NCBI GenBank assembly: GCA_964035545.1
Contig: OZ037765.1
Location: forward strand, 25,104,504 to 25,168,503
Source of the DNA: Bugula neritina
Lineage: Eukaryota; Bryozoa; Gymnolaemata; Cheilostomatida; Bugulidae
DNA length: 64,000 nucleotides
Direction of reading: 5' to 3'
The notes under the pieces were generated by a model, which was not told where the DNA came from, made no database searches, and saw only the letters and a list, made by a program, of their open reading frames with translations. Positions 56,051-61,098 of the stretch are shown here, piece after piece (the first letter of the stretch is position 1; each line of letters starts with the position of its first letter). The translations under genes were made by a program, and so were the position numbers.

Positions 56051-56631
56051 AAATTTAGATATTTATTAATATTTATAATAATAATAATTTTGAATTTTAA
56101 TTTAAAATATAATAATATTATTATTAATTAAATAACTATTTAAAATCATTTAATTTTATTATCTTATGATATTATTGAATTTAATATTATGATCATCCCT
56201 ATAATTTATATTATGATAGAAATAATAATAATTATGATTATTATATTTAGAAATTAGTGCGACTGTTTTCTATTTATCAGCATATGGATTTCAAATTTCG
56301 ACACAATTAATGTTAGCTTTTGGGAATCGATAAAAGGAGCACAATTTAGGGGGTCATAGAGTGCAGTGAGTATAATATAGACCCAATTTCAAATTTTCGA
56401 CAAATTAAACAGGAAAATATATTATTATTATTTCTCATCGAGCTGGAAAAGATAATTATTTTGAGTTCAGTATTATTTCTAGCTCAGTGTCCTCGACTCC
56501 AAGCTCGATACCCTCCTCGTACCACCGCACTCAGTGACCACCAATTTGTGCTGCTTTAAGCGGTTTTCGTTGTCTCTCAAGAAAAATGACAAAACGCACG
56601 TGGGGGCTGCTGAAATAAACAAGGTATTAAC

Positions 56632-56668
56632 CACTGAGCTGAAACTATAACAATAATATAGTTCAATG
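56632..56668. mobile_element. 37-bp end-to-end remnant of the P-like element family
   Basis: CACTGAGCTGAAACTATAAC matches the left end of the 58861-61090 element in 19 of 20 positions. TATAGTTCAATG matches its right end. The two are separated only by a few AT bases. GTATTAAC (56624-56631) and GTATTGAC (56669-56676) flank it, a 7/8 match at the same offset as the full element's duplication. Interpreted as an excision scar or extreme internal deletion. Confidence 0.65.
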
Positions 56669-57289
56669 GTATTGACCACCGACCTGGAAAAGAATATATT
56701 GGGTTCATTAGTATTAACGGTGAGGCGTGCATGATATAGCCATATGCGTGGCCAAACTATGTTTATAGGTCGTAACATAATTATTTGGAAGAATACCTGT
56801 TTCATACAGTGATACACTAAACTAAAATAAAAGGCTTATTCCAAAAATCGGTGCCTGTAAGCACTCAAATATAATTATTCTATAAAAGTTTATATTTCGA
56901 TAGTTTTATACAGTGAACTGAAAATATTATATTGTAACTTGTATTCCATTTTAGTGGTGAGAGGTTTCGATTTGGAAAATAGAGTGTGTCAAATTATAAG
57001 ACGCGCCCACCTTCAACTGTCGGATCCAATTAAAGTTATTCTTCATATTCTAGCTTGTACAATCACAAAGATGATGCGATATAAAGTTAGTGTTACATAT
57101 GAATATAAATATTATTAGTTATACTAATTACAGTAGCCAAAATATTATTTTAAATCATTAGTGAAATTGTTCCACAAAACTTGCAGTCATTATTGTTATT
57201 TACTGCTTGCGTTACTGTAGGGAGTAGATTTTATTTATTATGAGGCTGCATAATGATAAAGTGTAAACTTAAAGTTAAAGTAAAACTAA

Positions 57290-58852: not shown

Positions 58853-58860
58853 ATTTTAGC
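58853..58860 (+). repeat. 8-bp target-site duplication, left copy
   Basis: ATTTTAGC immediately precedes the P-like element; an identical copy follows it at 61091-61098. Confidence 0.8.
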
Positions 58861-59115
58861 CACTGAACTGAAACTATAACCCTGGAAAGGACATCCGGTA
58901 GCTTTATAATGTAACCTCGCGTCCAAAGAGCAGCCATATTGGTGGATTGCTAGTTTCACTTTGAAGTAAGATTTCGGGCAGTTTATCACGTGACCTGTTC
59001 ATTTTTTCACGTCAACTGGAGCCTCTTTTCGAAGTATTTTAATTTTAACCAGTTTGCCGCCATTGTTAAATTTTCAATTGTCGTGGTTTGTCACTAATAG
59101 TAAGCAGTACTAACA

Positions 59116-59985
59116 ATGGATACTTCTGAACACACTTATCACGCAGTTTCGAAAGGCCAAAGAACATCAGGATTACAGTGTTTTGCTTATAATTGCTTCA
59201 ATTACTCAAATTCAGCGCGTTGATAGCAAAGACTGAGAGAGAAACACTTCATTTCACAGGTTGAGGTTAGTTCGAGTAATACTAGTACTTCTACTAATAG
59301 TAATACTAATACTATTATTAATAGTAATACTTACACTAATACTAATAGTTATTAGTAATTGTATCCGTATCAATTATTATGGTAAAGATGGTTTATGAAT
59401 ATATGATAATGACTATACTTTTAGTTTGAGTCATAATGATGATCTAAATCTTAATTTATTGTAATTTAAATTGACTAACTTTTTATAGCTATTACCCATT
59501 TACTTTTGGTCATTTCAATTTGAAGATTTAGCTATAAAACTGAATTACAACTTGAATTAAAGTCTAATTGTAACACTAACGCTATATAAGTATATAATAA
59601 AATATAGCCAAAGGCTTAAGTTTTGTTGACAAATAAATGATCCAAGGCAAAGTAGATCTTACACAAAATTGTACTAGAAGTTGGCTAGTATTAGGATTTA
59701 GCAAAAGCTTTTTTATAAAAACATTATAATGTGCAGCAAAAATCAATAGTTTGTATACTAAATTTACTTAGCTTTAGTTTTAAATATTCATATATTTTTA
59801 TTTTAGATTCCCTAACAAAATAAAAGATTTCAGCATGTGTAAAGAATGGTGGCAAGTGTCCAGGCGCTAAGAAGAACTATCAGAAACTGCAAAACTGTGC
59901 AGTGAACATTTTTATCCTTAGCATATTGACACCACTGGCCAAACTGGAAGGTTGCATGAAGGAGCTGTTCCATTAGCAGAGTTGG
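59116..59985 (+). pseudogene. Broken THAP zinc-finger domain of a P-like transposase
   Basis: Exon-like segment 59116-59259 starts MDTSEHTYHAVSKG and carries the first ligand pair in CFAYNCFNYSNSA. After a TGA and a frame change it reads ERNTSFHRFP across a candidate intron (donor CAG|GTTGAG at 59260, acceptor TTTTATTTTAG at 59816). The second segment continues NKIKDFSMCKEWWQVSRR, then a TAA, EELSETAKLCSEHFYP, then a TAG, and TTGQTGRLHEGAVPLAEL. The C-x4-C, W, C-x2-H and AVP elements of a THAP domain are all present in order, but stops and a shift prevent a product. Confidence 0.7.
59275..59390. repeat. ACTAATAGTAATACTAAT tract inside the P-like element
   Basis: Lies in the candidate intron between the two THAP segments. 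Same unit as the genomic arrays, so it either expanded after insertion or travels with the element. Confidence 0.6.
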
Positions 59986-60640
59986 TTTATACTCTATCTA
60001 GACTTTTATTAAGTTCTGAACTATAGTGTAAAATTAGCATTCTTTCAAAGTTGTCCAAAAATTATATTTGTTATGCAAGTTACTTTTGAAATTCTTTTTA
60101 GAAACCGGTTACACCACAGAATACGAATGTGAGTAAAAATTCGAGCAATGAAGATCTACCAGTTTTCAACAGTTTTAACAGCCATAATTAATTAGATTTG
60201 AATAATTGTCATGTCATTTTTAAAAGAGAATTAGTATTTTCATTTTGTGCAGCATACAGCATAGCAAGTTGAATGTTTTTGGAGTACACCTGTGTTTTCT
60301 AAAAAGATTAAAAGCTTTTGAATTGTTTTACTGGCTTGATAACTTGAAATTATTAGAATATTATTTTAGGATCATTCTTACAGTGAAGGGGAAGATTGGT
60401 GGATACGATATCTTTGGCATTGAAAAGCATGCTATGGAAACTTCTACTGACATTGAGAACCACCACTCTACGTTACTCAACCTCATTGTTGAAATATATT
60501 AAGATTTATTCTAACACAATTTGTCTAAAATAAAAAACTTGTTTTACATAACGTTAGCTGTCAACAGAGAAATAATAAAAATGTTCTTTTTAAGAGTCAA
60601 TAGTCTTGTTATTTCTAGTTTTTATTTATATTACTTATAT

Positions 60641-60912
60641 TATATATCAGGTTTTTAAGTGATATCTATTTGCTTTTGTTGTTTTAAAGTAAAATATTTT
60701 TATAACAACTAGCCTCATTTTTCTATTCTATAGCCAACAATTATTACCAGCAGCTAAATTTAAGTAGATGTTTTATTATATACCAAGTTTTTACTAAATA
60801 TCAACTTGCTTTTGTTGTTTCAAAAAAGAATATTTTTATAACTACCAGCTTTATTTCTTTATGCTATAGCCAACCCTCATTACCAGCAGATAAAAATAGA
60901 GTAGATTTTGGA
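60641..60912. repeat. Two-copy tandem duplication, 136-bp unit
   Basis: Units 60641-60776 and 60777-60912 share TTGCTTTTGTTGTTT, AATATTTTTATAAC, CTATAGCCAAC and ATTACCAGCAG in the same order and spacing, with many substitutions. Subterminal within the P-like element. Confidence 0.75.
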
Positions 60913-61090
60913 ATTATTCACTTGTGTGGTGTGATGCCAAAGGTTTTATAAATACTGCAAAATATAGTAATTTCCATTACTTTTACATTAGAAAGTAGGC
61001 GGTGTCCAAAAATAAGAATTCTCCAATATGGCTGAACTATTTGGACGTTTAAAATCTACATTGGCCATTCCAGGGGGTTATAGTTCAATG

Positions 61091-61098
61091 ATTTTAGC
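61091..61098 (+). repeat. 8-bp target-site duplication, right copy
   Basis: ATTTTAGC, identical to 58853-58860. Confidence 0.8.

Follow-up and report, generated by a model that had tools for sequence, protein, structure and literature searches.

A decayed P-type transposon of Bugula neritina and genome-wide sites at which its ends are fused, with the features of excision footprints

The 64,000-nucleotide stretch of Bugula neritina DNA analysed here (the window) carries a P-type element of 2230 bp with inverted ends of the CA type and an exact 8-bp duplication, and the two ends of its family are found joined to each other at a large number of short sites throughout the genome. Very probably the element is a non-autonomous internal-deletion derivative of the P superfamily that was moved in trans, and the fused-end sites are the products of excision by a P-type transposase. 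We also consider it likely, with somewhat more reserve, that these sites represent more than 200 independent germline excision footprints of one P-type lineage in one genome, that their retention profile reflects a cut about 18 nt inside the ends, this long stagger being shared by distant animal P elements, and that they constitute a natural record of germline double-strand-break repair.

A sequence-only reading of the window had pointed to a 2230-bp unit with CA termini and an exact 8-bp target duplication, ATTTTAGC, which was borne out at 58861-61090 (Table 1). The right end, read reversed, is CATTGAACTATAACCCCCTGG. Inverted termini starting with CA and subterminal inverted repeats, both traits of the P superfamily, are present in the element. 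The inverted repeats had been described as imperfect and roughly 100 bp long, a fair description: an alignment of 120 bp of one end with 120 bp of the other scored 42, which none of 2000 random pairs of 120-mers from the window reached (maximum 30), and the homology consists of the outer end and a subterminal block near CGTCCAAA..CAGCCATATTGG, interrupted by gaps. The subterminal repeats had also been called GC-rich. With 44% and 39% GC in the two 100-bp ends, this holds in relation to the element (30%) and the window (31.8%), but not in absolute terms. A search of the 64-kb window against Rfam rendered no matches at gathering thresholds.

Table 1. Features of the element and of the nearby footprint-like site, in window coordinates
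Feature	Position	Strand	Remarks
Left flank of the 37-bp footprint-like site, GTATTAAC	56624-56631	.	
Footprint-like site of the element's family, 37 bp	56632-56668	+	fused left and right ends, one left-end base changed; 2.2 kb from the element
Right flank of the 37-bp footprint-like site, GTATTGAC	56669-56676	.	7/8 identical to left flank
Target-site duplication (8 bp), left copy, ATTTTAGC	58853-58860	.	
Left terminus, CACTGAACTGAAACTATAACCCTGG	58861-58885	+	first 20 bases identical in L052-L056, L058, L059, L061, L062 and L064
Left subterminal inverted repeat, CGTCCAAAGAGCAGCCATATTGG	58920-58942	+	candidate transposase-binding site
THAP exon 1 relic	59116-59223	+	ATG at 59116; C-x4-C (CFAYNC) at 59179-59196; ends at in-frame TGA, stop at 59221; homologue in the second family has an open frame
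THAP exon 2 relic	59799-59972	+	PF05485, 34.6 bits (cut-off 23.9); two in-frame stops; C-x2-H (CSEH) at 59898-59909
Internal-deletion junction	60384-60385	.	5' part follows L062 as far as the beginning of the L062 coiled-coil exon; 3' part matches the C-terminal region of L060; 2-nt shared GT
Transposase C-terminal relic (IGGYDIFGIEKHAMETST..)	60385-60503	+	reading frame probably differs from that of the upstream exon
Direct repeat of 124 bp within the element	60635-60894	.	two copies, 81% alike
Right subterminal inverted repeat, reverse complement CGTCCAAATAGTTCAGCCATATTGG	61023-61047	-	
Right terminus, CCAGGGGGTTATAGTTCAATG	61070-61090	-	
Target-site duplication, right copy, ATTTTAGC	61091-61098	.	

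The element is not unique in the assembly (216 Mb, 295 contigs). As the sequence-only reading had anticipated, its ends are multi-copy: searches in which all candidates were scored gave 12 matches to the left end and 14 to the right end, including the window's own ends and diverged partial ends. Besides fragments and two interrupted copies (L058, L059), a search with the whole element recovered at least six more that are nearly full-length and uninterrupted (L052-L057), a count that is a lower bound, as 40 of 963 candidates were scored; many of the matches fall on a simple repeat that occupies element positions 415-533. The 8-bp duplications expected for such copies were exact in seven of the nine with both ends (the window copy, L052-L057, L059 and L061), and all seven sequences differ; there is no duplication at L052, and none at L057, whose left tip is damaged. 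Across L052-L057, L059 and the window copy, which is the most diverged of them, divergence from the majority base (K2P) ranges from 0.5 to 3.3%. In the same alignment, L058, which is interrupted and has no right end, shows 12%, a value to which a misaligned insert probably contributes. A further short, internally deleted form of the family is L061 (274 bp), and L064 (44 bp) may be another.

The transposase that the element lacks can be recognized in two larger relatives. One of them, on contig C8 (L062), shows matches of 87% to the left end and 84% to THAP exon 2 and continues into a coiled-coil exon and RNase H and GTP-binding domains; the other, on C3 (L060), combines RNase H and GTP-binding sequence with the right end of the element's family at 82%. 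PF21787 adjoins the 5' end of the family on C8 and the 3' end on C3, and the RNase H-like core with its GTP-binding insertion (PF21787, PF21788), present in both relatives, is deleted from the window copy. Since the window element corresponds to L062 as far as 60384 and to L060 from 60385 onwards, it is an internal-deletion derivative of an element that encoded a P transposase. By these alignments, the deletion took out most of the core of the transposase, with its coiled-coil, RNase H and GTP-binding parts, while the C-terminal region was spared along with the THAP exons and both ends. The THAP relic, together with relatives that encode P-type domains, and those of no other transposase class, beside one family end each, supports the P-like assignment of the sequence-only reading, and on this homology the element is a member of the P superfamily. 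Neither relative is intact: L062 has no 3' end in view and has lost half of THAP exon 1, and L060 is devoid of the 5' part. The autonomous copies that had been suggested to exist elsewhere were not encountered, no complete autonomous member of the element's family having been found in the genome. At the position of the second catalytic Asp, as inferred from an alignment with the Drosophila P transposase structure 6p5a, Asn is present in L060, L062 and L079, all of them decayed P cores, and Asp in L077, from a sister family. The Asn bears on activity and not on ancestry, L060 and L062 being decayed copies.

The C-x4-C...C-x2-H signature of a THAP domain, which had also been proposed, lies in two exon relics and is matched by PF05485 above the cut-off (Table 1). 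One of the stops in exon 2 is common to the nine copies aligned, and the same THAP stretch of L062 (EELSETAK..) likewise opens only downstream of a stop. Judged from these lesions, the THAP part looks like a dead passenger in the element's family, and, because the stop is present in all nine aligned copies, the element needs a transposase supplied in trans.

For the sister family, which also resides in this genome, the strongest RNase H core lies at one place (C8:1833960, 122 bits). This core matches the solved structure 6p5a by sequence (E 1.6e-6) and gave 33 matches with E <=1e-3 in a large protein collection, the few of them with organism names being from fish and one being called DNA transposase THAP9. 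The left end of the sister family, CAATGAACT.., resembles that of the element, with TAATGTAACCTCG in common. In a second P family, seen in L075 and L076 (C8:12695443 and C1:24913833), L074 and five more THAP matches of equal score, the THAP exon is open; the left end of this family in L075 and L076 is CAATGAACTCAATAATATC. L075 and L076 are 99.97% identical across 2934 bases, which suggests that they moved very recently. Among the four places with PF21787, the one at C8:1832649-1834750 (L074, L077), which carries the strongest RNase H core, is the only one that adjoins a THAP exon 2 of the second family. On the 5' side of L074, the sequence before position 652 has no match to the second-family left end of L075, and the copy may be truncated or co-opted. 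For the GTP-binding profile, 21 of 26 matches cover profile positions 58-99 with near-identical scores (e.g. C6:15306562); 19 of these 21 partial matches lie in an open frame of 134 aa, and an RNase H match is listed near only one. Another repeated THAP-bearing unit (L067-L072) has open frames of 231 aa in copies about 89-99% identical.

The word YATAGTTCARTG from the ends of the family occurs 844 times in the genome, vs 197 for the reversed word. Five matches were sampled: at L081, L083 and L085 both family ends are joined within 26-33 bp, L084 is a tandem satellite, and L082 has no second end in view. With three fused ends, one satellite and one unexplained match in this sample, amplified MITEs were rejected as the source of the extra words. 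The satellite (C1:15376657-15418401) contains CATTGAACTATA in its unit by convergence or capture, as seen in one 266-base stretch (L084), and it inflates the word counts. Among the first 100 12-base matches to YATAGTTCARTG listed, 25 fall in fused-end sites and 18 in the satellite, which leaves 57 at other places (about 20 expected by chance), and part of the matches outside fused sites and satellite is thus in excess of chance.

A pattern in which both ends lie 0-30 bases apart (sites of up to 48 bp) was found at 244 sites genome-wide, and the reversed pattern at none. The next class, with the ends 31-60 bases apart (sites of 49-78 bp), has only 11 sites, again with none for the reversed pattern. 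The first pattern is self-complementary, and its forward and reverse counts were taken as the same sites, as is the case in every row listed; it differs slightly from the second in that it also admits left-left and right-right pairs. It requires 9 nt of each end, and being exact it misses aged sites, such as the one in the window with a changed base. Fifty sites were listed, all of them from contig C1, and in 46 a left end is joined to a right end; the other four, including one apparent left-right join with one base changed and one apparent right-right join, were dropped before the following counts, and their presence means that 244 overstates the left-right class. The 46 sites, 26-48 bp long, comprise 41 distinct sequences. 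The commonest product, CACTGAACTGAAACTATAGTTCAATG, of 26 bp, occurs three times and is joined at TATA, which is found in both ends. At the junctions the ends overlap by up to 4 bases or are separated by up to 26 bases of filler, some of which repeats end sequence. The left end retains 18-19 nt in 29 of the 46 sites and 20 nt or fewer in 44, the right end 9-18 nt in 44, most commonly 14 nt (13 sites) and with no peak at 17-18; the maximum is 22 on both sides. Retention was taken as the longest match, so that chance matches inflate these values.

The flanks were compared at 11 fused sites (L064, L081, L083, L085-L091 and the one in the window), where L086-L091 are six of the first eight listed beyond those already sampled. 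Eight have exact 8-bp duplications and three are identical at 7/8, a level (7 of 8 or better) found in 696 of 200,000 random pairs of flanks. Over 18 duplications, 7 from insertions and 11 from fused sites, 44 of 72 positions agree with the motif GT....AC; the mean of the null draws is 18, and none of 10,000 reached 44. The target of Drosophila P is GTCCGGAC; GT....AC does not discriminate P from hAT, since it is compatible with hAT targets too. Next to two of these sites there are other notable sequences: CACCGACCTGGAAAAGA directly follows the footprint duplication in the window (56677-56693), and at L085 CACTGAACTGGAAAAGA starts within the duplication, while CTGAACTGGAAAAGA recurs in inverted orientation some tens of bp beyond. 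Possibly they belong to another small element next to which the insertions happened.

According to an excerpt of PMC7776569, the cut made by P transposase in Drosophila lies 17 bp inside each end and produces 3' extensions, and the donor break can be repaired by end joining. Such a cut followed by end joining predicts a site in which remnants of the two ends, neither longer than about 17 nt, meet at microhomology or filler and are flanked on either side by the duplication. The fused sites fit this prediction with a bound of about 18-20 nt, which the left end usually reaches, the right end being trimmed more variably. In B. neritina, the internal deletion described above stripped the element of most of its transposase core. 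A P-type transposase acting in trans would have inserted the element into 8-bp sites, which do resemble GTNNNNAC, and would have excised related copies some 200 times or more. After each cut, the 8-bp duplication would remain, together with about 18 nt of either end in the form of a 3' overhang; rejoining of these overhangs by the host, through microhomology or short filler, would give rise to fused-end sites of up to 48 bp. Directly observed are the sites themselves, the duplications at those checked and, among those listed, junctions that vary within a bounded length; each site would once have held an element that was later cut out, and the length of the stagger is deduced in the same way. 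Two details of the retention profile go against the model, the left end often keeping 18-19 nt and not 17, and the right end being spread over 9-18 nt without a peak at 17-18. Our confidence is slightly lowered by this lesser sharpness of the right end as well as by the four listed sites that are not exact left-right joins. L064, detected with the left-end search, keeps 30 nt of the left end, above what the model predicts, and may instead be a small internal deletion.

It could be the case that the fused sites are internal deletions, produced by interrupted gap repair, of elements still present, and not end-joined empty donor sites. The family does make internal deletions, as seen in the 2.2-kb type, L061 and perhaps L064, and right-end retention has no sharp peak; breakpoints of this origin, however, should spread over the element, yet sites of 49-78 bp are so few beside those of 48 bp or less, and the left breakpoint clusters at 18-19 nt, which makes this origin unlikely. 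It is also quite improbable that the sites are micro-elements, i.e. ultra-short MITEs that transposed themselves and made their own duplications. All 11 sites checked have an 8-bp duplication (three with one mismatch) and a few sequences recur, but most of the 46 sequences are distinct, unlike copies of one unit, and the recurrent CACTGAACTGAAACTATAGTTCAATG is the product expected from the TATA common to both ends. Moreover, the listed sites are too short for subterminal repeats, and left retention is bounded at about 18-20 nt.

There is hardly any room for the alternative that the element is a hAT-type or other transposon with 8-bp duplications and a THAP domain by chance. Elements of the hAT type also make 8-bp duplications. 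Their target NTNNNNAN, given in an excerpt of PMC3878927, is compatible with the motif of the element's family. The relatives with one family end each, however, encode the P-specific PF21787 and PF21788, and the sister family matches the Drosophila P transposase; membership in hAT was rejected, the transposase domains being of the P type. As for the THAP exons, internally deleted P elements of Drosophila can make short DNA-binding repressors, and here the THAP exons are kept while the catalytic core is deleted. A repressor of this kind is nevertheless very improbable, since the same in-frame stop interrupts exon 2 in all the copies aligned and exon 1 of the window copy ends in a stop, and a THAP-only repressor was rejected because of these shared stops.

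The element and its relatives resemble Drosophila P and its deleted derivatives in their THAP, RNase H and GTP-binding transposase (here in the relatives), 8-bp duplications and subterminal inverted repeats, as well as in the occurrence of internally deleted derivatives. For Drosophila, the excerpted text of PMC7776569, where THAP domains are stated to be restricted to animals, also describes donor sites repaired by end joining once the 17-nt staggered cut has been made. Unlike the perfect 31-bp termini of Drosophila P, those of the element are different and imperfect, and the footprint-like sites persist genome-wide, commonly with 18-19 nt of the left end. Zebrafish Pdre/THAP9 shares with the element a P-type transposase, short TIRs starting with CA (CATACCTGTCAAC in zebrafish), separate subterminal repeats and 8-bp duplications (excerpt of PMC10983969), and internally deleted copies of it are mentioned in part of PMC7776569, but the end sequences differ. 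Excision by zebrafish THAP9 in fly cells resulted in larger flanking deletions, as reported in the same part of PMC10983969, whereas the 11 fused sites checked here keep their duplications. The genome of Anopheles gambiae likewise contains several P families, accompanied by MITE relatives that are 205-2450 bp long and have 8-bp duplications (PMC1562414, in excerpt). Those P-MITEs are amplified units with unrelated cores, whereas the fused-end sites are mostly individually different and measure at most tens of bp. In rice, a genome-wide survey of excision scars, with their deletions and fillers, relied on a comparison of two species, according to an excerpt of PMC5023962; in B. neritina the footprint-like sites are readable in a single genome because long remnants of the ends stay behind. 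In the open-licence literature, whose silence is weak evidence of absence, no footprint or P-element record outside insects was found that is closer than the systems compared.

As such the element is unremarkable, representing another decayed P family, and the footprint record is the valuable part. To our knowledge, long-stagger P cleavage has been measured biochemically only in Drosophila. The fused-end sites suggest that P-type cutting has been far more frequent than the seven uninterrupted 2.2-kb copies imply, and that long-stagger P cleavage can be read from the genome sequence of another animal. If this is true, lost insertions could be counted, activity could be dated and the outcomes of germline end joining could be measured in species without genetics.
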